47,888 nt of DNA from Thermodesulfobacterium hveragerdense DSM 12571 (GCF_000423845.1 NZ_KE384097.1:57090-104977), one strand, 5' to 3'. Shown: positions 14,134-25,112, numbered from the stretch's first letter. Notes: generated by a model from the letters alone, not told the origin. A program made the numbers and translations.

Positions 14134-16062
14134 TTAATAATCTATCCCTTCAATAGGGATATAGGCTATTCTTGGGGTTATAAAAATCATAAGTTCGCTG
14201 GTAGACAACGTTTTTTCTTTTCTTTTGAAAAATTCTCCTGCGCCTGGAATACTTCCAAGCCCAGGAACTTTATCTATGTTATCAGAAATGTTATTTATTT
14301 TAACCCCTCCTATTACTAAAGTTTCTCCATTATCAAGTAAAGCAGAGGTAGAAATGTTACTGGTATTAATAGTTGGTTCACCTTGAACTGTACGCCCCCA
14401 ATCAGGTTCTGACTTTTCTATAACCACATCTACAAAAATTTTACCCTCTGGGGTAACAGAAGGGGTTACCAAAAGTTTTAACCCTGCATCTATAAAACTT
14501 ACAGTTGCTTGGTTAATGTTAGCTGCATAACTCAAATAAGGAATTCTGTAACCCTGCTGTATTATAGCTTGTTCCTTATCAAGGGTTAAAATTTGAGGTT
14601 TTGAAAGAACCCTTGCAACCCCTGATTCTTCAAGAGCAGAAAGAGTTACATCAAGCACAGCCGTGGTAGCACCAAAATAACCTAAAGCAACCCCTAAATT
14701 TGCTATGCTATTGGCAACACCTAAATCAAAGATGGTTGTGTTAGGAACGTTAATACTTGGTGTTTTTGTGGTCATGGTATCATTTGTGGTGATAGAATGA
14801 CCTGGAGCAATACCCCAAATACTATGTTCCGTTCTTTTCCAAGCAGCTCCTCCCCACTTAATACCCAATTTATGTGCATATTCATCTCTCATTTCTACTA
14901 TTCTTGCCTCTATCATTATCTGAGGCCTTGGTTTATCTATGGCTTTGATGATTGCCTCAACCTCATCTAATATCTTAGGAGTTGCTTTAACTATGATGGT
15001 GTTGGTCAGAGGTTCAAAGGTTATTTTATTAGGATCCTTAAGTAACTCCTGAAGTTTCTCTGGAAAACGATGGCTCTTTAGAAGGTCTATGACCTTGCTT
15101 GCTCTTAAATACTTAAGCGTAAAAATTTTGGTAATAAGCAGGTTTTTTTCTTCTTGAACCTTTTGTAAAGCATCAAAAATATCTCGCTGAGCTTCTATTT
15201 CTGCTTTAATACCCTCTTTACCCTGAGCTACAGCCTTTAAGTAATCTTTATACTGTTCTGCATATTTTTTGACCTCATCTAACGTAGCAATCACAATCAA
15301 ATTTTCTGTTTTCAACTTCGCTAAACCAAAGTTAGAGATTATCGCATCTAATAACAGATCCCACGGAACATCTTTGGCTTTAAGGGTAACTATACCGTTA
15401 ACTTTATCACTCACCAAAATATTAATACCACCTACCTCTGAAAGAAGCCTTAAAACGGCATGTAGGTCTGCCCCTTGGAAATCAACCGTTATAGGAATAC
15501 CTTTATATTTAAGCTCAGAAAGAGGAAGAGTAACCCTTCTTTCGTTTAAAAAAATCTCGTATGGTTGGGTAGTTATCTTATTTTCTAAAATATTCCTTAG
15601 TTCCTTTAAAGTTTTTTCCTCCAAGGTTTCTACTTTTTTATCTTTAATAACCACGTTGACTGGTTTAACAGGTTTTTCCCATAAAAATTCAACCAAAATC
15701 TTATTTTCTAAATCTTTTACCTGAACGTTAAACTTTTTGGTCAAGATTAAATTTAATCTAATCCCATTCTTTTCTAAAGAAACATCTACTTCTTTAATCA
15801 AATCCTTGGGTAAAGTTTTTACCCAGTTTGATTTTAAAGGAACCACGTTTTGTAAAAATAGAGTTAATTTAGTCTCTTCAACATTTAAGGTATATTGGGG
15901 TTTTCCGTCAAACTCAAAAATCAAAGTATCAACCGGTTGTTTCAAGTAAAAAACCTCTCTTAGATTGGTCTTAGCCTTTACCTCACCCCTTCCCAAACTT
16001 AAAATAAACGTAAAAGCTAAAATAAATATAAACATGTTAAAAATAAATATCCTTATCTTCAT
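14134..16062 (-). CDS. pilQ: type IV pilus secretin PilQ
   Basis: Outer-membrane multimeric channel through which the type IV pilus passes. It has an N-terminal signal peptide (about 1-30). An AMIN-type peptidoglycan-binding region is near 35-130. An STN/secretin N0 domain (ITVDFQGADLHAVLRLLSEV) is near 193-265. A NolW-type N1 domain is near 308-378. The C-terminal secretin barrel carries the family motif VPGLGSIPGAGEFFK and ends LMIFITPRI. At 642 residues it is near the usual length. It is the fifth gene of pilMNOPQ, 3 bases after pilP. Confidence 0.95.
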   Translation of the reverse strand: MKIRIFIFNMFIFILAFTFILSLGRGEVKAKTNLREVFYLKQPVDTLIFEFDGKPQYTLNVEETKLTLFLQNVVPLKSNWVKTLPKDLIKEVDVSLEKNGIRLNLILTKKFNVQVKDLENKILVEFLWEKPVKPVNVVIKDKKVETLEEKTLKELRNILENKITTQPYEIFLNERRVTLPLSELKYKGIPITVDFQGADLHAVLRLLSEVGGINILVSDKVNGIVTLKAKDVPWDLLLDAIISNFGLAKLKTENLIVIATLDEVKKYAEQYKDYLKAVAQGKEGIKAEIEAQRDIFDALQKVQEEKNLLITKIFTLKYLRASKVIDLLKSHRFPEKLQELLKDPNKITFEPLTNTIIVKATPKILDEVEAIIKAIDKPRPQIMIEARIVEMRDEYAHKLGIKWGGAAWKRTEHSIWGIAPGHSITTNDTMTTKTPSINVPNTTIFDLGVANSIANLGVALGYFGATTAVLDVTLSALEESGVARVLSKPQILTLDKEQAIIQQGYRIPYLSYAANINQATVSFIDAGLKLLVTPSVTPEGKIFVDVVIEKSEPDWGRTVQGEPTINTSNISTSALLDNGETLVIGGVKINNISDNIDKVPGLGSIPGAGEFFKRKEKTLSTSELMIFITPRIAYIPIEGIDY

Positions 16063-16065
16063 AAC

Positions 16066-16524
16066 TCACTCCTTGACTAAACTTAAAACCCTTTGTACCT
16101 TTTTACGATTGCCATAAAGGTCGGTAATCTCTTCTTCTACCAAAATCTGATTCTTTTCTATCTTTAAGATCCTGTAATTTCCTATCTTACTTCCTGATTT
16201 AACCAGATAACCCATCTTGCTTTCGTCCTGAATAAGAGCCCACTTTTTTCCTTGTTTATCAACTATACCTACTAAACGTATAGAAAGGACATTTTCATAA
16301 CTTATGGTTTTACCTACTACAGGGGCAATAAAAGGATTTTTAACCTCTTTAGAGTTTATTATATAAGGTTCTTTAGCAAGCTCAACCTTCCAGGTGTCGA
16401 GTTCCTTATCGATTAAGTTTGCATTTACCCCCATCTTGGGAGAAATAGGTTCCTCTTTCTTTTTATTACATCCTATTAAAAAACCAATCAAAACTAAACT
16501 TATCACCCAAACCTTAGATTTCAT
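16066..16524 (-). CDS. pilP: type IV pilus lipoprotein PilP
   Basis: Periplasmic lipoprotein that links the PilMNO inner-membrane complex to the PilQ secretin. Lipobox LIGCNKKK puts Cys near residue 19. The conserved part runs from KNPFIAP (about 62) to the end, including a beta domain with LVGIVDKQGKKWALI and GSKIGNYRILKI, as in other PilP proteins. Length 152 is normal. Its start overlaps the pilO stop by 4 bases. Confidence 0.9.
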   Translation of the reverse strand: MKSKVWVISLVLIGFLIGCNKKKEEPISPKMGVNANLIDKELDTWKVELAKEPYIINSKEVKNPFIAPVVGKTISYENVLSIRLVGIVDKQGKKWALIQDESKMGYLVKSGSKIGNYRILKIEKNQILVEEEITDLYGNRKKVQRVLSLVKE

Positions 16525-17123
16525 TTCTTTTCCTTACTCTCTTTAGTTTCTAAAGGTTTACCTGTATACTGAAAAGTACTTAAGTTTAATCCAAGGGTAA
16601 GCCTCTTATCCTTAACTTTAAACTCAAGTTCGTTTATTACCACTAAACGAGGAAGCTTTTGAATCTCGTTTAGAAAATTTATCATGTTGCTAAAATCTCC
16701 TACAAGCTCAACAGTAATAGGAATGATCTTATAGTAATCTTTTAGCTCTTCCTTCTCTGGTTTAAACAAGGCTAAGTCTAAGTTGTTCTTTTTAGCAAGC
16801 TCTGCTATCTTTTGCAGGATGACAGGTATCTCCTTTTCATCAGGAAAGATAGTCTTTACCACTTCCAAAAATTCTTTTCTTGCTGCCATTTGTTTATTAA
16901 GAAAATCAAGTTTGTTAACAACCTGAGAATATTTAGCTATTTCCAAATCTAACTTTTTAACGTCTTCTTCTAAAATATTTATAGCCTCTTTACTGGGTTG
17001 ATAATAAAACTGATAGAACAACGCAAGGGGACCTATCACTAAAACAATCAAAAGAAGTATTTTTGTTCTTTTAGGGGTAACTTCATCCCAAGCTTTAACT
17101 CTTTCGATCAAAGCCTTCATCAA
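16521..17123 (-). CDS. pilO: type IV pilus assembly protein PilO
   Basis: Bitopic inner-membrane protein that pairs with PilN. It has a short cytoplasmic N-terminus, one transmembrane helix (about 23-42), a coiled coil (about 50-90) and a ferredoxin-like periplasmic domain (DYYKIIPITVELVGDFSNM). Length 200 and the position between pilN and pilP, with 4-base overlaps at both ends, support the name. Confidence 0.9.
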   Translation of the reverse strand: MMKALIERVKAWDEVTPKRTKILLLIVLVIGPLALFYQFYYQPSKEAINILEEDVKKLDLEIAKYSQVVNKLDFLNKQMAARKEFLEVVKTIFPDEKEIPVILQKIAELAKKNNLDLALFKPEKEELKDYYKIIPITVELVGDFSNMINFLNEIQKLPRLVVINELEFKVKDKRLTLGLNLSTFQYTGKPLETKESKEKK

Positions 17124-17662
17124 AAACTAACCTCAGCCTGGAATTCTACCAGCTTATCTTGTTTTTTAACCTGGGTAATGTTTACCTGTCTTACTATATC
17201 CTTTTTTTCTTCTAAAGTTCTTAAATATTCACCCACTTCTTTCATATCAGCACTTATACCTTCTATCTTGGTTTGATTAGAGCTTATCTTTAATAAACTA
17301 AAATAAACCTGAGTTTTACCAAGATTACTAAGGACAACATCTAATCTTTTTAAAATTTTTTCTCTATCCTTTTTAAGAGATAAAATGGTTTCTATCCTTC
17401 TTTTAACCTCTTCGTTTTCCTTTTCAAGTTGTTCTACCTTTTGCGCTACCATCTTATATTCCTTAAGCTTAGTTTCTTTAGTTGTTTTTTCTTTAATCAG
17501 GTCTTTCTTCTGTTTTTCCATAGAAATAATACCACTTAACATCACAGATAATACAAAAATAACTAAAGGTATGATAAGTTTATAAAACCTGAAAGGTTCT
17601 TTATGAATTTCCTCCTTTACTGTTTCCTTAGGTTTAGGTAAAAGATTAAACTTAATGATCAT
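17120..17662 (-). CDS. pilN: type IV pilus assembly protein PilN
   Basis: Bitopic inner-membrane protein. The N-terminal IIKFNLLPKPKE segment matches the INLLP motif by which PilN binds PilM in the cytoplasm. One transmembrane helix lies at about 29-47, then a Lys/Glu-rich coiled coil (50-110) and a small periplasmic domain. Length 180 is typical. It overlaps pilM and pilO by 4 bases each, so it should be translated by coupling. Confidence 0.92.
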   Translation of the reverse strand: MIIKFNLLPKPKETVKEEIHKEPFRFYKLIIPLVIFVLSVMLSGIISMEKQKKDLIKEKTTKETKLKEYKMVAQKVEQLEKENEEVKRRIETILSLKKDREKILKRLDVVLSNLGKTQVYFSLLKISSNQTKIEGISADMKEVGEYLRTLEEKKDIVRQVNITQVKKQDKLVEFQAEVSF

Positions 17663-18720
17663 ATAAATTCCCTCAAAGCTGCAGCTACAGCATTCGCCCC
17701 TTGAGTGTTTATGATCTTAAGATAAGTTGGGTCAACATTAGAGTCTATCTCGATCCTATCTTGTAGATTGATCTTTTTGGTTTCAAGTTTAAGTTTTGAA
17801 GTAAAAATCTTTTCTATATCTAAAATTCTTGCTCCTCCTCCTACCAGATATACTACTTCTAAGATTAAATTAAACTTACCTTGTACAAACTCGATGGTGT
17901 ACTGAATTTCTTTTATGATTTCGTTGATATAGTTTTTGTAAATTTCTTTTACCTCTTGAAATTTCTCAAAATTAGAAGGATTAACCATTACCATCTCTAC
18001 CATGTCCTTATCCGGAACCAGCTTTCTTATTTCTTTTTTAAGGTTTTTCAAACCAAGATTAAAAAGTTCTCGGTTGTATACAGGAATGTCTTTGGTAGAA
18101 AAAAGAAGTCTAACCTTACTTTCTCCCCAATCGACGATTAGTTTGGCCTTTTCTTCCCCTTCTAAAAACTCTACAAGGTTGTGAATATTTATAAAATCTG
18201 CATCCATGTTTTTTATGCTAAAATTAAGGCCTTTCAAAAGATTTTCAAACTGTTGAGCTATATCCTTTTTTATAACCAAATAAAGAATCTTATAACTATT
18301 TTGCATAGGGAAGATAAAATAACTGTAATAAACATCATCTAAATTATAGGGAACGTCTTCATTAAGCTTATTTCTTATTTCTTCTTCAGAAGGTATATAT
18401 TGAGATTGAAAAGAATCATATATAAGTACATCATACGAAAGAGAAAGATTAATTTGATTAGAAATTGGTTGAAAAACTTCAAAAATATTTTTTAAATTAG
18501 TGCTTAGATATTGAAAATCGTTGATTATTCCGTTTACGATAACATTCGGATAGGTTTTTCCCTGGATGAAATTAGTAAGGATTATATCGTTTTTATTTAA
18601 AACCACCTCTGCTATTTTGATAGAGTATGTCCCTATATCTACACCTATATAAGCATCTTTTTGAGGTTTTTTAAAAGTTAACAAACTTTTAAGGTTTTTT
18701 AAGTCAAAAATTTTATTCAT
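17659..18720 (-). CDS. pilM: type IV pilus assembly ATPase-fold protein PilM
   Basis: Actin/FtsA-fold cytoplasmic protein that recruits PilN and couples the pilus motor to the periplasmic complex. The N-terminal phosphate-binding segment AYIGVDIGTYSIKIAEV (about 23-39) and the second segment LIVDWGESKVRLLFS (near 194-208) are the FtsA-like motifs, and VYLVGGGARI (near 287-296) is the adenosine motif. Length 353 is normal. It heads pilMNOPQ. No properly spaced Shine-Dalgarno is present and the -10 box ends 9 bases before the ATG, so the mRNA is likely nearly leaderless. Confidence 0.93.
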   Translation of the reverse strand: MNKIFDLKNLKSLLTFKKPQKDAYIGVDIGTYSIKIAEVVLNKNDIILTNFIQGKTYPNVIVNGIINDFQYLSTNLKNIFEVFQPISNQINLSLSYDVLIYDSFQSQYIPSEEEIRNKLNEDVPYNLDDVYYSYFIFPMQNSYKILYLVIKKDIAQQFENLLKGLNFSIKNMDADFINIHNLVEFLEGEEKAKLIVDWGESKVRLLFSTKDIPVYNRELFNLGLKNLKKEIRKLVPDKDMVEMVMVNPSNFEKFQEVKEIYKNYINEIIKEIQYTIEFVQGKFNLILEVVYLVGGGARILDIEKIFTSKLKLETKKINLQDRIEIDSNVDPTYLKIINTQGANAVAAALREFI

Positions 18721-18758: not shown

Positions 18759-19421
18759 TTATAATGCCAATTTTTTACAAAAATCATTCAGTTCTTTTTC
18801 AAACTTTTCGATCACTTTTATCAACCAAAATTTCAACTCTTTTTTAGCCTTTTCTAAATAACTGTTTATTTCTTTTTTCCATATTTTTTTTAATCTCTTG
18901 TTTTTTTCTTTTATTTTTTTAAAGATATAAATCGGACCTGCTAAAGTAGAGACCGCAGGAATAGCTTTTAAAACTAAAGTTTCAGGGACTGAAGCTATAG
19001 CGATTATCCCTCCAGCACTAACAACTACACCTGGTGCTACAGTAATAGTTTTTTCTACTATGGTCTCTTCCTCTTTCAATTTAAGTAGAGAAGGATTATA
19101 CCTGTTTTCTTTAACTAAAGCCCAATCCTTTATTTTTTCTCTTAAGTTTTCTTTAGAAAAGGCATACTGAACGTCTGAGCCTTTTGTTCTAATTTGTTCT
19201 AACACCTCTTTCATAAGATAATTAAGTACTGTATCCAGTAAAACCTCAGACCTTTCTCTCAGAAGTTTTCTCGGATAATGTTTGACAAACTCCTTTAAAA
19301 AAAACATGTCTAAATCTTTATCTAAAAAATAAAAAAGTTCATTTTTAATCAACTCGATTTCTTTATCTATGTCTTTATCAAGCTGACTTTCTATGTTTTT
19401 TATAGTCTCTTTCTTTAACAT
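18759..19421 (-). CDS. hypothetical membrane-hairpin protein, partner of the dynamin-like GTPase
   Basis: I recognise no family. The 220 residues are mostly charged helix (Lys/Glu-rich, about 1-115 and 167-220) around one long Gly/Ala/Val-rich hydrophobic block (about 127-166, including VVSAGGIIAIASV and PAVSTLAGPIYIF), which could cross or dip into the membrane as a hairpin. This layout resembles the C-terminal membrane part of bacterial dynamin-like proteins, which the upstream gene seems to lack. Its start overlaps the GTPase stop by 7 bases, so the products are likely made together. Function is inferred from context only. Confidence 0.8.
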   Translation of the reverse strand: MLKKETIKNIESQLDKDIDKEIELIKNELFYFLDKDLDMFFLKEFVKHYPRKLLRERSEVLLDTVLNYLMKEVLEQIRTKGSDVQYAFSKENLREKIKDWALVKENRYNPSLLKLKEEETIVEKTITVAPGVVVSAGGIIAIASVPETLVLKAIPAVSTLAGPIYIFKKIKEKNKRLKKIWKKEINSYLEKAKKELKFWLIKVIEKFEKELNDFCKKLAL

Positions 19422-21418
19422 ATAAGAGCACTCTTTAAATTATCGATTTTTTTAATCTCACCTTCGATCAAGTTAATGTTCTTTTCTAACATAAGAATTT
19501 CATAATCTATAAGTTCGTTTGATTTTAACTCTTGTCTTAATTTTTCCAAACCCCTTCTCTTTTCTTCTAAAATTAAAGTAATCCTTTTTTTATAAAAATC
19601 AAAAGCACTGTAAAACTCTTCTCTCAATTTCTCGATGATTTCCACAAAATTTTCTATCAGATTGTTTTTCAAAGTCTTAAAAAACATATTTTCATCTAAC
19701 ACCTCTTTAGTACCTATAACCGTCTTTTTTGTACGCCCAGATTTAAACCATTTCCAAGGTTTAAGAAAATTCCAATTCTCAAATAGATCTTCTATCCTTT
19801 CTTCTACGATTTCTTCCCTTTTTACCACTCTCTTTTTACAGCTCTCTTCTATGGCCTTAAAATCTATTTTGGGTAAATTTATGTTATATTCCTCTTTAAA
19901 CTGTTCTCCTATTTGTTTAAGCTTTTCTTTAAAAAATTCAGTAATTTTTTGCAGGTTTTCTCTCACTATCTGGTCTAAATCATTTTCAGCATCTCGATAA
20001 TACTTTCTCAATTCTTCTAAATCGGAACTTTTTAAAAAAAATTCATAGTAATTAAACTTAAACTCATTTAAAGTAGTCTCTACAGGAGAATGAACCCCTC
20101 TAAAAATGGTCATAGCTTCTTCCAAAACTAAATAACAGTAAGCTTCTAACTTCTTCAAACCCTCCTGTCTTCTTTCTATCTCTTTTAAAAACTCCTCTCG
20201 ATCTTTTTTCTGACTTTGAAGTAAAGCGATCGTTTCTTGATAATGGTTTATCTGTTCTTTATAACCATCTTTAATAGTCTCTAAAACCTCGGTTAAAATA
20301 GAAAAGGGTGCTTCAACCAAAAATCTTTCAAGGTTAGGAAGTAGTTGTTTAAAACCAGAAAACTCTAAAAAAGCTTCTTTTTCATCTAATCCTTCTTCGT
20401 CTGCCAAATCCTGAAAATAAACTACCCATTTTCTTTTACTCTTATCTTTTTTTATTTCAGCTAAAGGTTTCCCCTTATTTAGCTCTTCATAAATAAGCTT
20501 CAGAACACTATCTACCGCAAAAATCCTGTCAGACGAAATAATAGAACCATAAATACGCTTAGCCTCATCTAACAATCTCTCTTTTTCTTCATGAAAAACC
20601 GCAGCATGGGTTAAAACTAAAAACAGTACATCTTTACTTTTCTTAGTAATAACCGAAGAAACAAACCTTTTGAAAGACTCAGATTCCACCGGTTTAATAG
20701 GGTGGATAAAAAGGACAGCGTTAGCTTTATCCAAAAAAGAAAAAGAAATATCGTATACCCCTCCTACCGCGTTAACCCCTGGCATGTCAACAAAACGTAA
20801 CTCGTCAAAATCCCAATCAAAGGGATATCCAAGCTCTATCCTTATCGGGATTTTATCTTTACTACGATCCATAGCATATTGTTCCAGTTTATACTTGACC
20901 TCCTTAAGTCTTTCCATTCCTGACTTTTCTTCTAAGTACTTTATAAAGTCATCGTCTATCAGAGGAACCTTATCGTGTTCTAAAATATAAAGATCTATCA
21001 AGGTTACCGGAATATCCCTGTATTCTTCAGGAATAGAGGCAATCGACTTAAGTCTCTCTCTAAAAATCTCTTTTGATTCTTCTTCAAAAAGTTCTACCCT
21101 ACCTGAGGCGTAAGTAACTCTTAAAAAAGGTTTTTTAGCATAAAAAATTTCGATAAGTGCACTGGTAGCCTGTAAAACATCGGTAGGAAGTATCTCTTCT
21201 TTTATTAAACTATTTATAAAACTTGATTTTCCTGCCTTTACCTCGCCGGCTACCGCCACCAAAAATTGACTGTTCTTTAAGTTTTCCACCTTTTTGGAAA
21301 GACTTTCAAGATCTACTCCATCGTTAACCTCTCCCCTTAAAGATTTGTAGATCTCAAAAGCTTCTATAACCTGTTGTTTATAAAATTTATAATCTGTAAA
21401 ACCTAAACGAGTAAACAT
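19415..21418 (-). CDS. dynamin-family large GTPase
   Basis: Bacterial dynamin-like protein of 667 residues; the family binds GTP and remodels or tethers membranes. G1 P-loop GEVKAGKSS is at 58-66, a G2-like LPTDVLQATS at 78-86 and G3 DMPG at 211-214. The expected G4 (T/N-K-x-D) position reads LVLTHAAVF (268-275) and is degenerate. Long coiled coils cover about 380-430, 465-510 and 585-665. A Trp/Phe/Lys/Arg-rich patch (WNFLKPWKWFKSGR, 549-562) could be a membrane-contact paddle. No transmembrane helix is seen. A Shine-Dalgarno GAGGT precedes the ATG. It is 19 bases after the sensor gene and overlaps the membrane-hairpin gene. Confidence 0.88.
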   Translation of the reverse strand: MFTRLGFTDYKFYKQQVIEAFEIYKSLRGEVNDGVDLESLSKKVENLKNSQFLVAVAGEVKAGKSSFINSLIKEEILPTDVLQATSALIEIFYAKKPFLRVTYASGRVELFEEESKEIFRERLKSIASIPEEYRDIPVTLIDLYILEHDKVPLIDDDFIKYLEEKSGMERLKEVKYKLEQYAMDRSKDKIPIRIELGYPFDWDFDELRFVDMPGVNAVGGVYDISFSFLDKANAVLFIHPIKPVESESFKRFVSSVITKKSKDVLFLVLTHAAVFHEEKERLLDEAKRIYGSIISSDRIFAVDSVLKLIYEELNKGKPLAEIKKDKSKRKWVVYFQDLADEEGLDEKEAFLEFSGFKQLLPNLERFLVEAPFSILTEVLETIKDGYKEQINHYQETIALLQSQKKDREEFLKEIERRQEGLKKLEAYCYLVLEEAMTIFRGVHSPVETTLNEFKFNYYEFFLKSSDLEELRKYYRDAENDLDQIVRENLQKITEFFKEKLKQIGEQFKEEYNINLPKIDFKAIEESCKKRVVKREEIVEERIEDLFENWNFLKPWKWFKSGRTKKTVIGTKEVLDENMFFKTLKNNLIENFVEIIEKLREEFYSAFDFYKKRITLILEEKRRGLEKLRQELKSNELIDYEILMLEKNINLIEGEIKKIDNLKSALIC

Positions 21419-21437
21419 CTTTCATTACCTCTTTATT

Positions 21438-23093
21438 CTATAAAGTTTTTATTTTAGAGTAATGCTCTCTCAACTCCTCTAAAAGAAGCTTTAGTCTTCT
21501 TGCTATACCTCTAAGCTGAACCTGTAATTTTTCTACCTTTATAGAATCTTCCTGATTATGAGCAACAATAAGGTCTTTACCTACATTATGAAGGTTTTTC
21601 AAAAGACTTTCAAACTCATCAAAGTCAAAATCTTGCACCATCTGTCTTAACCTTTGACCTTCTTCAGAATAATACCACTTTCCGATAGGAAAGGCCTGAT
21701 AATCTCCCCATCTTTCTGGGTCAAGTCTATCTATACCTTTTATATGAGCCTGCAAACGTAACATATAGCGGTCTATATCCTTTTCGAAAAGTTCAAACAA
21801 CATTTCTTCCATCTTCTTGGTTTTTACTGTAGAAGCTATGGTTTTCATATAAGAAGAAATAAGCAAGGTTTCATAAGCATTCTCGCTCATCTTATCCATA
21901 AGTTGACTGATCTCGTTTGAAACTTGGGTAATTTCTTCAAAAGCCTCGTTAATACTTTCAGAGGTTTTAAGACCTTTGTCTAAATCTTCTGCTATTTCTA
22001 ATATCTTAGCATTTAAGCCTTCAAGCAACCCTAATATCTTTACTAAAATCTCTGGTTGTTCTTGACTCTCTACATGTTTTAACTTTTCTATCTGGGTTAA
22101 TATTTCTTTAGCAATGTTATTGATAGCACTGGTGTTCCTTGAAATAGAACCCACAGTCAAAGCAAAATCCTCAGATATTATAGAGGTCTGTGCTACCTGC
22201 AAATTCTGGAACTTGATTTTCTCATTAACGTTGTCTACCAATCTAAAAACGTTATCCACCTGGTCTACCAATTTTACTGAATAATCAAGGGTTTTAGAAG
22301 TAAAGTTTTTCATATACTCTAACACTTTTTCTACTGCTTTAGACAATCTTCCTATCATGTCCTCTCTTTCTTTGAAAGCTGTTGGAACTTCAACCGTAAG
22401 GTCTCCCTCTGCTATTTTATCCAAAACTCTTACTACAGACTCCAAAGGCTGATGGGCTATTTTTATATAGGTAAAATATACAGCTAATGCTGCAGTTATA
22501 ATACCTCCTAAACCTAAAAATATATATACCAGTGTTACCAGTTTAGTTTCAGAAAATATATACTCTACAGGAACAACAATACTTATAACTCCTATTACTT
22601 CTTTTTCTCCTACATTATAATGACATCTTAAACACTCTATGTTAGACTTAATCGGAAAAACTCCTCTCAACTCAAAACCTTCCCTTACTATTACCTCATT
22701 TCCTTCTTTTAAGACCTTTCTTTCTAACTCATCTTTCGCATAGTATTGAGGAGATTCTTTGCCATATAACTCGTCTATTTTTTCGTTTCTTATAATCCTA
22801 ACATTAGGTTGTTGTCTTAAAAATTCTTCTCTAATAATTTTATAGTTTTGCCTTTTATCCCCTACCATTTTATCAAGAAGCGGTCCATGTTTAATGATTG
22901 CATTAGATACTATTTCATATTTTTCTTTTAAAGATTGTTTAGCATGTTTTAAACCAAAAAAATAGTTAGCATAAGAAGTAACGATGATGGTTAAAATTAT
23001 CAACACAGAAAAACAAACTACAATAATAGGAATAATCTTTTGATGTAACTCTAATTTTTTATTTAAATTGCTGAACCAACCTTGAGAAGACAT
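21438..23093 (-). CDS. membrane c-haem sensor with HAMP and CZB-like domains
   Basis: Predicted inner-membrane signal protein of 551 residues. TM1 is at about 19-41. A periplasmic DUF3365/Tll0287-like domain carries one c-haem site, CLRCH, at 154-158. TM2 is at about 184-211, a HAMP domain at about 206-258, then a long helical segment, and a C-terminal chemoreceptor-zinc-binding-like domain at about 435-515. The helical segment lacks the conserved chemoreceptor hairpin tip, so CheA/CheW coupling is unlikely. In the CZB motif the zinc Cys seems to be Phe 468 (FPIGKWYY) and one expected His is Gly 505. It lies 15 bases after bacteriohemerythrin and before the GTPase. Signal output is unknown. 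Confidence 0.82.
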   Translation of the reverse strand: MSSQGWFSNLNKKLELHQKIIPIIVVCFSVLIILTIIVTSYANYFFGLKHAKQSLKEKYEIVSNAIIKHGPLLDKMVGDKRQNYKIIREEFLRQQPNVRIIRNEKIDELYGKESPQYYAKDELERKVLKEGNEVIVREGFELRGVFPIKSNIECLRCHYNVGEKEVIGVISIVVPVEYIFSETKLVTLVYIFLGLGGIITAALAVYFTYIKIAHQPLESVVRVLDKIAEGDLTVEVPTAFKEREDMIGRLSKAVEKVLEYMKNFTSKTLDYSVKLVDQVDNVFRLVDNVNEKIKFQNLQVAQTSIISEDFALTVGSISRNTSAINNIAKEILTQIEKLKHVESQEQPEILVKILGLLEGLNAKILEIAEDLDKGLKTSESINEAFEEITQVSNEISQLMDKMSENAYETLLISSYMKTIASTVKTKKMEEMLFELFEKDIDRYMLRLQAHIKGIDRLDPERWGDYQAFPIGKWYYSEEGQRLRQMVQDFDFDEFESLLKNLHNVGKDLIVAHNQEDSIKVEKLQVQLRGIARRLKLLLEELREHYSKIKTL

Positions 23094-23108
23094 GTCAAAC
23101 CTCCCCTT

Positions 23109-23507
23109 TTATTGACTATTTATCTTTCCAGCTAAAAAATTTCCATATTTTTTATCATGAACCAAAAGATGGTTAACCCACCAATTTTTCAAATGTTTTA
23201 AAACCTCAGAAAAATTAATTTCTTCCTGATCGATTAACTCTTTAAAAGATCTTTCAAAACCTTCGTGTTCCTCTTTATGCTTCTCTATTTCAGGATAACC
23301 ATACCTTTCTAAAATTTCTTCCTCAAATTTAAAATGGGTTTCAAAGTAGTTTTTAAGCGTATTTATCGAATTTATCAAAAGTTTTTTGTCTACCTTAAGT
23401 CTTACCGCCTCATATAAAGCATTAACCATGTTAAACATCTTTTTATGTTGTTGATCAATCTCTTTAATACCTGTAAGAAAATTATCATTCCATTCTAAAA
23501 AAGGCAC
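23109..23507 (-). CDS. bacteriohemerythrin
   Basis: Small cytoplasmic four-helix protein with a non-haem di-iron centre that reversibly binds O2 (or NO). All ligands are present: His21 (IDQQH), His58 and Glu62 (HFKFEE), His77 and His81 (HKEEH), and His113 and Asp118 (HLLVHD). Length 132 is typical. The start is GTG at 23507 with a Shine-Dalgarno GGAGG. It is the first gene of the operon that continues into the haem sensor and dynamin-like GTPase, which suggests oxygen or NO supply/sensing for that system in this anaerobe. Confidence 0.95.
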   Translation of the reverse strand: MPFLEWNDNFLTGIKEIDQQHKKMFNMVNALYEAVRLKVDKKLLINSINTLKNYFETHFKFEEEILERYGYPEIEKHKEEHEGFERSFKELIDQEEINFSEVLKHLKNWWVNHLLVHDKKYGNFLAGKINSQ

Positions 23508-23525: not shown

Positions 23526-23545
23526 TATCTAACAATTATTAGATA
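23526..23545. promoter_or_regulatory. inverted repeat upstream of bacteriohemerythrin
   Basis: TATCTAA (23526-23532), 6 bases, TTAGATA (23539-23545): a perfect 7-bp inverted repeat. It sits 18 bases before the GTG start and about where the minus-strand -10 box would be, downstream of a TTGACA -35 candidate near 23562-23567. Likely an operator; the regulator is unknown. Confidence 0.5.
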
Positions 23546-23628
23546 ATCTTTTTAACAAATTTGTCAAACTCAAAAAAAACAAAAAATTGTATTTTTAATA
23601 AAATTTTAGAGGCTTTATCTAAAAATTA

Positions 23629-23666: not shown

Positions 23667-25112
23667 ATGTCTAAAATATTAAAGACATTTTTTTTAATAC
23701 TTATTTTTTTGTCTATATATTCTCATCTTTATGCCTATAAAGACTCCCAGGAAAAACGGTTTAATCTTTGGCCGATTTTTTTCTTTTCCCAAAATTATGA
23801 ACTAAATTCTACCAGGGTTGAAGCCTTAGGTCCCTTATATCAAAAAACATCTTTTTCTAAAGAAAATGCTACTTCTATAAGACCTATTACTTCTAAAGTT
23901 GTCACATCAGAAGGTAAAAAGATCTTTTTTATATCTCCTTTAGGAATTTATCAGTCTGATTCCCAAAGTTCTACCTTAAAAATAGTTCCTATAATCAACA
24001 AAACTTGGTATAAGCACTCTCCAGAAGAGCCCGAAGAAAGACAATTTACTTTTTTCCCTTTTTTTACGGGTAAAACCGCTTCGAACGAAACCTATGGAGG
24101 CTTTTTTCCTTTTTATGGAAAAATCAAAAATCGGTTTGGTGCTGAAGAAATAACCTTCTTTATATGGCCTCTTTACAGTAAAACTAAATATGAAGAATAT
24201 ACAGCCTACAACATCCTATGGCCTTTTATAAGAACTGTATCTGCTAACCAAGAAAAAAACCGAGCTCTTTACCAAGGCTTTAAAATCTGGCCTTTTTATG
24301 GAAACTTCAGAGAAGAGGAACAGGAACGCAAGTTTATCCTATGGCCTTTTTATATAAAAGAAACCATCCATTCTTCAGAAGAAGATTCTTCAGAAAAACT
24401 GATAATCTTTCCTTTTTATATTCGCGAAAAAAACGAGGACTTCAAAAAAAAGATAATACTTTGGCCATTTTTTCAAAAAATCACCACCCCAGACAACTCA
24501 TACTCTCAGTTAGATGCACCATGGCCATTTTTCAGAAAAATTCAAGGTAAAGAAATAGAAGGAAAACGTTTTTGGCCTTTGTACGGTTATGTCAAAAAAG
24601 AAGACACCTTTGATTCTTTTGTTTTATGGCCTCTCTATTTTTATCAAAAAACTTACATATCTTATAAAGGAAAAAACTATCATGAAGAGATACATCGTTT
24701 CTTAATTCTTTCTAAAGCTCAAAAAACGTGGGAAGGTAACCAAACAGTTGCCAGAGAGTTTAAGATCTGGCCTCTTTTTCATACTATTTCTCAAGGTTCA
24801 CCTGAGGTCAAAATCTGGTATTTTCCAACGATTTTACCTATTTTTGACGAAGGGTTAGAAAGAAACTATGGTCCACTTTTAAAACTGATGGAATACTACA
24901 AAAAAGAAGAATATGTTATTTTTAAGATACTATGGGGTCTTTATAGATATGAAAGATATAAAACTAGAAAAGTACAGGAAATAGGCCCTATCTTAAGGAT
25001 AGTAGATGGTGAGAAGACAGGTTATGTAGAAATTTTAGAAGGACTTTTTGGAATAGGTCAAAAAGACGGTTCAGCTGTTCTCAAAATATTTTATATTCCA
25101 ATTAAAGAGTAA
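23667..25112 (+). CDS. secreted WPF/WPLY-repeat protein, unknown function
   Basis: I recognise no family. It has an N-terminal signal peptide (about 1-23, ending SHLYA). The mature protein, about 458 residues, holds some 11 W-P-[FLI]-[FY] units (LWPIFF, IWPLYS, LWPFIR, IWPFYG, LWPFYI, LWPFFQ, PWPFFR, FWPLYG, LWPLYF, IWPLFH) plus FPFF, FPFY and GPLY variants, spaced roughly 20-45 residues. Each is usually preceded by a hydrophobic strand and followed by a charged turn. Such alternation suggests a repeated beta structure, perhaps an outer-membrane barrel or surface protein; this is inference. It has no cysteine. It is transcribed from a consensus promoter with coaD 39 bases downstream. Confidence 0.85.
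   Translation: MSKILKTFFLILIFLSIYSHLYAYKDSQEKRFNLWPIFFFSQNYELNSTRVEALGPLYQKTSFSKENATSIRPITSKVVTSEGKKIFFISPLGIYQSDSQSSTLKIVPIINKTWYKHSPEEPEERQFTFFPFFTGKTASNETYGGFFPFYGKIKNRFGAEEITFFIWPLYSKTKYEEYTAYNILWPFIRTVSANQEKNRALYQGFKIWPFYGNFREEEQERKFILWPFYIKETIHSSEEDSSEKLIIFPFYIREKNEDFKKKIILWPFFQKITTPDNSYSQLDAPWPFFRKIQGKEIEGKRFWPLYGYVKKEDTFDSFVLWPLYFYQKTYISYKGKNYHEEIHRFLILSKAQKTWEGNQTVAREFKIWPLFHTISQGSPEVKIWYFPTILPIFDEGLERNYGPLLKLMEYYKKEEYVIFKILWGLYRYERYKTRKVQEIGPILRIVDGEKTGYVEILEGLFGIGQKDGSAVLKIFYIPIKE

Follow-up and report, generated by a model that had tools for sequence, protein, structure and literature searches.

A conserved four-gene operon in Thermodesulfobacterium joins a bacteriohemerythrin and a tip-less haem receptor to a putative split dynamin pair

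The DNA analysed here (the window, 47,888 nucleotides) is part of the 1.73-Mb draft genome of Thermodesulfobacterium hveragerdense DSM 12571 (GCF_000423845.1 NZ_KE384097.1:57090-104977), a member of a genus of anaerobic, heat-loving sulphate reducers. Four genes on its minus strand are the subject of this work. The first gene encodes a bacteriohemerythrin (23109-23507, 132 aa) and is followed by a membrane haem receptor of a tip-less chemoreceptor type (21438-23093, 551 aa), a dynamin-like GTPase (19415-21418, 667 aa) and a putative stalk-only partner, initially described as a membrane-hairpin protein (18759-19421, 220 aa). The first three genes are spaced 15 and 19 bases apart, and the last two overlap by 7 bases; these distances and the coordinates are exactly as given in the first-pass annotation of this DNA. 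The GTPase gene is present in a single copy in the genome, and the protein is 98% identical to that of Thermodesulfobacterium thermophilum DSM 1276, the closest named record found.

Upstream of the hemerythrin gene we identified a promoter-like site (23538-23567, minus strand) consisting of TTGACA, an 18-base spacer and TCTAAT, which is a consensus match only. In 10/10 loci the first gene is preceded, at a distance of 44-62 bases, by a TTGAC element, compared with a chance expectation of 2-6% per locus; this element, too, is a consensus match and not a mapped promoter. The palindrome TATCTAA-N6-TTAGATA, which precedes the hemerythrin gene, was considered as a candidate regulator site and rejected, as it is not conserved at the other loci.

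The conservation of the gene block was analyzed in 60 related genomes. A full-length GTPase is present in ten of them, distributed over three genera: eight of the 14 Thermodesulfobacterium genomes (its own included), the Caldimicrobium genome G014 and the Thermodesulfobacteriaceae genome G024 (G and L numbers are our labels for genomes and loci). The first-pass annotation had made its proposal dependent on joint conservation in relatives, and the order hemerythrin-receptor-GTPase-hairpin protein is indeed intact in all ten GTPase carriers, with identities as low as 31-51%; the arrangement is not a matter of chance. The spacing between neighbours ranges from -17 to +45 bases across the ten loci, apart from one extra gene in G024. 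This gene (L052:6828-7691, plus strand) lies between the hemerythrin and the receptor genes and encodes a 287-aa putative lipoprotein without a Pfam match, which by eye looks like an extracytoplasmic sensor domain. All four block genes have a ratio of nonsynonymous to synonymous substitution rates (dN/dS) of 0.05-0.21, indicating purifying selection.

The surroundings of the block are more variable. The flanks are largely those of the window in G001, G013, G010 and G009, only pilM is retained of them in G008, G005 and G004, and both flanks are wholly unlike the window's in G014 and G024. A genome of the same genus, G007, provides an exact empty site (L112:7625-7786): pilM and a divergent gene of 485 aa are 160 bases apart, with a matching gene order to either side but without any block gene in between. 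Because of this exact empty site and the joint presence of all four genes in 10/10 carriers, the block was gained or lost as a single piece. Taken together, gene order and sequence conservation indicate that the four genes are one real, conserved operon.

The periplasmic domain of the receptor (residues 41-184; 22542-22973, minus strand, as are all features of the four proteins given below) is located between the predicted membrane segments 20-38 and 185-203 and contains the c-haem motif CXXCH in the form CLRCH (residues 154-158; 22620-22634), of which C154, C157 and H158 are invariant among nine orthologues. A CXXCH motif in a periplasmic domain that is flanked by two membrane helices is the arrangement known from the sCache_heme / Tll0287-like (DUF3365) family. 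The cytoplasmic part consists of a HAMP-like linker (residues 214-262; 22308-22454), a shortened coiled-coil hairpin without a CheA/CheW tip (residues 263-406; 21876-22307) and a CZB-like domain with a broken zinc site (residues 407-508; 21570-21875). While the first-pass calls of a bacteriohemerythrin, a dynamin-family GTPase and a c-haem motif held, HAMP and CZB remain below the Pfam cut-offs in the window protein: HAMP (PF00672) reaches 19.3 bits (cut-off 25, E 0.0014) and CZB 25.5 bits (cut-off 29.4). HAMP structures of AF1503 match the receptor profile with an E-value of 3e-5. MCPsignal, the signalling domain of methyl-accepting chemotaxis proteins (MCPs), scores 13.9 bits (cut-off 34.6).

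Nine operon orthologues of the receptor were aligned with four full-length MCP paralogues from the genus. The chemoreceptors of the genus, which are about 650 aa long, match the operon receptor N-terminally (~6-333) and C-terminally (~305-545) and carry extra sequence between these parts. From G230 to Y407 the nine operon receptors have 171-180 residues and the four paralogues 294, so that about 115 residues including the conserved signalling tip are missing in 9/9 operon receptors, whereas 4/4 paralogues have a typical IEAARAGEHG tip. The MCP tip is the part that binds CheA and CheW. As single-contig genomes are among the nine, the loss is not an assembly error. It is also specific to the operon receptor, because the paralogues keep the tip and CheW-domain genes exist in the genome (five CheW-domain matches). 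With the CheA/CheW-binding part gone, the output of the receptor would no longer be chemotaxis. Compared with a full-length MCP paralogue of its own genome, the operon receptor shows 24-46% identity, depending on the domain. The tip-less form was seen only where the GTPase occurs, both in the 60 relatives and in 297 genomes of the phylum; in the latter set the profile of the tip-less receptor gave no full-length match outside the operon carriers.

A second alteration affects the CZB-like domain. Cys468 is replaced by F, L or S and His498 by L or Y in 9/9 operon receptors, while both residues are kept in 4/4 paralogues; thus, two of the four ligands of the 3His/1Cys zinc core are gone. In known CZB domains the zinc cysteine is conserved to nearly 100% (PMC8262984). 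Judged from these substitutions, the domain cannot serve as a normal CZB zinc/redox switch, which alters the first reading of this part. Yet no other part of the receptor is as well conserved: mean identity is 58% here versus 32-43% elsewhere. As the zinc site is broken and conservation is nevertheless highest here, we infer that the domain has been retained for a different function, for example contact with another protein.

For the periplasmic side, the c-haem Cache domain of a HAMP-bearing membrane signalling protein has been described in a 2026 preprint as a sensor of nitric oxide (NO) and not of O2 (PMC12889525). By analogy, NO is probably the ligand of the operon receptor, and redox sensing is possible. 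NO is a lead and not a result, since the receptor domain matches the c-haem Cache family weakly.

The GTPase belongs to the dynamin family (Dynamin_N: 66 bits, cut-off 27). Its P-loop GEVKAGKS (residues 58-65; 21224-21247) varies little or not at all among 17 homologues, and the G1 and G3 (DxPG) motifs of a dynamin-type GTPase domain are invariant. In place of the canonical N/TKxD of G4 (residues 270-273; 20600-20611), nearly all of the 17 relatives have LTH, and H271 is invariant (17/17). The predicted model (predicted local distance difference test, pLDDT, 83) resembles mitofusin-1 with a Z score of 25.7 (root-mean-square deviation, rmsd, 4.4; 332 residues aligned) and BDLP with a Z score of 21.1 (rmsd 4.0, 347 aligned), including a helical neck/trunk stalk as in these two proteins. 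The relationship is also visible by sequence, as the GTPase profile finds BDLP1 with an E-value of 2e-19. At the end of the modelled stalk, a low-confidence loop between two strands forms an aromatic tip and a putative membrane contact (residues 543-564; 19727-19792), in which W549, F551, P554, W555 and W557 are invariant in nine orthologues. A strongly hydrophobic segment is missing in 16/17 GTPase homologues. The unit contains no second GTPase, and a similarity search at E <= 0.001 detected none in the rest of the genome.

A hydrophobic segment is present in the small protein encoded next to the GTPase, in 17/17 homologues. Family scans with Pfam, NCBIfam and PADLOC yielded nothing convincing for this protein. 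Its predicted model (pLDDT 80) is a helical bundle that, among solved structures, best matches the stalks of MxA, MxB, dynamin, SynDLP and LeoA, with Z scores of 13.7 for MxA (rmsd 3.0, 160 aligned), 11.5 for dynamin, 10.0 for SynDLP and 8.2 for LeoA. The hydrophobic segment corresponds to the tip of the modelled stalk (residues 125-167; 18921-19049), which has low confidence in the model. The partner therefore seems to be a free-standing stalk of the dynamin/Mx type with a hydrophobic tip and no GTPase domain; according to the model the protein is apparently more than the proposed membrane hairpin. Together, GTPase and stalk partner resemble a dynamin that has been split in two. According to the available part of a published account (PMC6104087), bacterial dynamins mostly occur as operon pairs, and a stalk-only partner without a GTPase domain is not among the dynamin pairs described in that part.

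The bacteriohemerythrin matches NF033749 (NCBIfam) with 111 bits (cut-off 84), and the iron ligands H21, H58, E62, H77, H81, H113 and D118, i.e. the five histidines, one glutamate and one aspartate of bacteriohemerythrins, are invariant in nine orthologues. Apart from it, hemerythrin is matched in the genome only by the N-terminal domain in a 574-aa protein (L114:747-2471, contig C2 of G000). The sequence of that protein reads by eye as GGDEF-EAL, and it may be a gas-controlled cyclic-di-GMP enzyme.

A pattern-based scan of 84,980 species genomes detected about a dozen more GTPases, 37-43% identical, from Pseudomonadota, Bacteroidota, Planctomycetota, Myxococcota and WOR-3. In each of the 11 full-length distant cases the stalk gene comes directly after the GTPase gene, and in none is a hemerythrin or receptor gene found alongside. 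Instead, 9/11 then carry a gene of 1009-1078 codons, which encodes a DUF87/HerA-like ATPase in 4/4 cases scanned; at the two loci scanned further, the ATPase is followed by an LHH nuclease and a SUKH-family protein. Restriction-modification and WYL genes are present near the GTPase-stalk-ATPase loci. In a tree, the receptor-linked GTPases group in a single clade (support 99/94). As the same pair occurs in both gene settings, its genetic partners are of at least two kinds.

In the second setting, the unit at L067:7992-14897 and L066:2829-9889 consists of the GTPase, the stalk protein, a DUF87/HerA-like ATPase of about 1045 aa, an LHH (HNH/EndoVII) nuclease and a SUKH-family immunity-like protein, and a similar order is found at L065, L068, L069, L071, L072, L075 and L076. 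It has no good match in PADLOC 2023, is apparently undescribed and looks like a conflict or defence system.

The window operon itself has no good counterpart among the defence systems of PADLOC, which yields a weak and partial LeoBC match for the GTPase (E 7e-7) and an E-value of 0.015 for the stalk protein, and the two dynamin units of LeoA/LeoBC are not found, as only one GTPase is present; an assignment to a known defence system was therefore rejected. Carriage by viruses or plasmids was likewise rejected: we found no relatives in viral contigs, and a plasmid search with the Vibrio GTPase gave no match at E <= 1e-30, searches that distant carriers could escape.

On the downstream side, 38 bases past the stalk gene, starts a group of genes that, by sequence and order, looks like the type IV pilus operon pilM-N-O-P-Q (14134-18720, minus strand). 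The block was considered as a part of this operon, and this was rejected: pilM immediately follows the block in eight genomes, but it is located elsewhere in Caldimicrobium G014 and was not found in G024, and pilMNOPQ occurs without the block in G002, G006 and G007, so pilM is a neighbour and not a member. On the other side, a divergent gene (23667-25112, plus strand) encodes a 481-aa protein with a signal-like start, many WP(F/L)(F/Y) repeats and no credible Pfam match. This gene flanks the site across the genus, whether the operon is present or not.

Based on these results we propose a working model, and we see roughly even chances that the four genes are an operon for a receptor-gated dynamin system. 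The haem in the periplasmic domain would bind a gas, probably NO, or possibly sense redox, and the signal would cross the two membrane helices and the HAMP-like linker into the short cytoplasmic coiled coil. There, the conserved CZB-like end, expected near the membrane, may contact the dynamin pair. For a receptor that has lost its tip, the natural target would be one of the two products encoded alongside, the GTPase or the membrane-bound stalk protein. The pair would consist of a soluble GTPase with its own stalk and a GTPase-less stalk protein that is anchored in the inner membrane by its hydrophobic tip. Upon the signal, both could co-assemble at the inner membrane, which they would tether, seal or reshape, with membrane protection as the presumable purpose, while in the cytoplasm the hemerythrin would scavenge or buffer the same gases, O2 and NO. 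The model is favoured by the joint conservation of the four genes behind one promoter-like element, by the restriction of the tip-less receptor to GTPase carriers in the genomes searched, by the location of the membrane-inserting segment, which is in the partner and not in the GTPase, and by the pair staying together in other phyla. The earlier idea of a gas- or redox-triggered membrane remodelling fits this anatomy and is partly supported, its trigger and the remodelling itself being what we infer; the first-pass annotation had noted neither the loss of the chemotaxis tip nor the wider occurrence of the GTPase-stalk pair.

Several points weigh against this model. The conservation of the operon shows a shared function, not a direct coupling. 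The assignment of the partner as a stalk depends on one predicted model: Foldseek alone gave no significant match for it, a profile comparison with the GTPase's own stalk detected no homology, and a designed helical bundle reaches a Z score of 10.8, as bundles score high easily. The Tll0287-like (DUF3365) profile matches 11/13 members weakly (best E 0.018) and the window protein with 13.0 bits (cut-off 24.1). Finally, because G4 is atypical (LTH), GTPase activity and nucleotide specificity are uncertain, which does not affect the fold.

Part of this evidence could also be accommodated by a shared stress operon without direct coupling, in which the hemerythrin detoxifies O2/NO, the dynamin pair repairs the membrane, the receptor signals to an unlinked partner and the genes are grouped by simultaneous need. 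An operon with a single promoter-like site and a hemerythrin with complete iron ligands are in agreement with this idea, as is the support of membrane integrity under attack by bacterial dynamins (PMC8844932). We regard it as rather unlikely, since a tip-less receptor without the GTPase was found in no genome searched, and since receptor conservation peaks in a cytoplasmic domain without its known ligand site, which points to a partner encoded in the operon itself. A role in phage defence, with the operon as a version of the GTPase-stalk-HerA-LHH-SUKH cassette in which receptor and hemerythrin replace ATPase and nuclease and trigger a membrane response to infection, appears improbable. Although the same GTPase-stalk pair occurs elsewhere in a nuclease/immunity cassette near restriction-modification genes, the similarity to LeoBC exists in weak form, the block is present all-or-none within the genus and DynA of Bacillus subtilis delays phage lysis (PMC8844932), we found no nuclease, ATPase or defence genes in the unit and identified none beside it in the window; moreover, a periplasmic haem receptor would be unexpected as an infection sensor, and the viral contigs contained no relatives. 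Very doubtful is a receptor still working in chemotaxis, modulating a full-length paralogue in mixed dimers or arrays next to a dynamin pair with an unrelated job: full-length paralogues that resemble it N- and C-terminally exist in the genus and the genome has CheW-domain genes, but the entire CheA/CheW-binding tip is missing in 9/9 and the block including the receptor moves with the dynamin genes and not with chemotaxis genes.

The receptor-gated dynamin system has a more far-reaching form, to which we give a little less than even chances: a transmembrane haem receptor of chemoreceptor descent, having lost its kinase-control tip, would directly gate a GTPase and a membrane-embedded stalk, so that the membrane is reshaped or sealed on meeting NO or oxygen, which would be a signal-transduction pathway of a new type. 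There is a fair chance that experiments will show such a categorically new pathway. To our knowledge, the signals that switch bacterial dynamins on are largely unknown; as the conserved operon links a dynamin to a receptor whose haem sensor domain can be identified, the question of activation becomes directly testable. If true, the model would mean that a chemoreceptor scaffold can, by loss of its tip, be re-wired to control something else than the CheA kinase, and that a dynamin can come in two pieces, a GTPase that is soluble and a stalk subunit that is bound to the membrane. The first-pass annotation knew of no described system of this make-up, and our literature search likewise found no paper joining hemerythrin with dynamin, bacteria and operon; a single paper combined dynamin-like protein, methyl-accepting chemotaxis and operon, and its title points to an unrelated topic.

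The components themselves belong to known kinds. The novelty lies in the link between a tip-less chemoreceptor and a dynamin pair and, should the model hold, in the stalk-only subunit. With Geobacter GSU0582/GSU0935 of the sCache_heme family (PMC12889525) the receptor shares the membrane topology of a receptor, the periplasmic CXXCH motif and the HAMP-like linker; in contrast to such c-haem periplasmic chemoreceptors, it has no CheA/CheW-binding tip and scores below the cut-off of the c-haem Cache profile. TlpD and the CZB diguanylate cyclase DgcZ (PMC8262984) have in common with it a CZB-like domain at the end of a chemoreceptor-type coiled coil, but the operon receptors lack the zinc cysteine and one histidine in 9/9. 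The dynamin part resembles Cj-DLP1/2, DynA/DynB, LeoA with LeoBC, and BDLP1 in the dynamin fold, the membrane tip and an apparent second dynamin-related gene next to the first. The split proposed here differs from that of LeoBC, where the GTPase domain is itself divided over two genes (PMC4159319). Compared with the defence-type dynamins LeoA/LeoBC, the receptor and the hemerythrin stand in the place of a second GTPase-bearing dynamin gene, and compared with bacterial dynamin pairs in general, the partner is without any GTPase domain and the pair is joined to a receptor and a hemerythrin.

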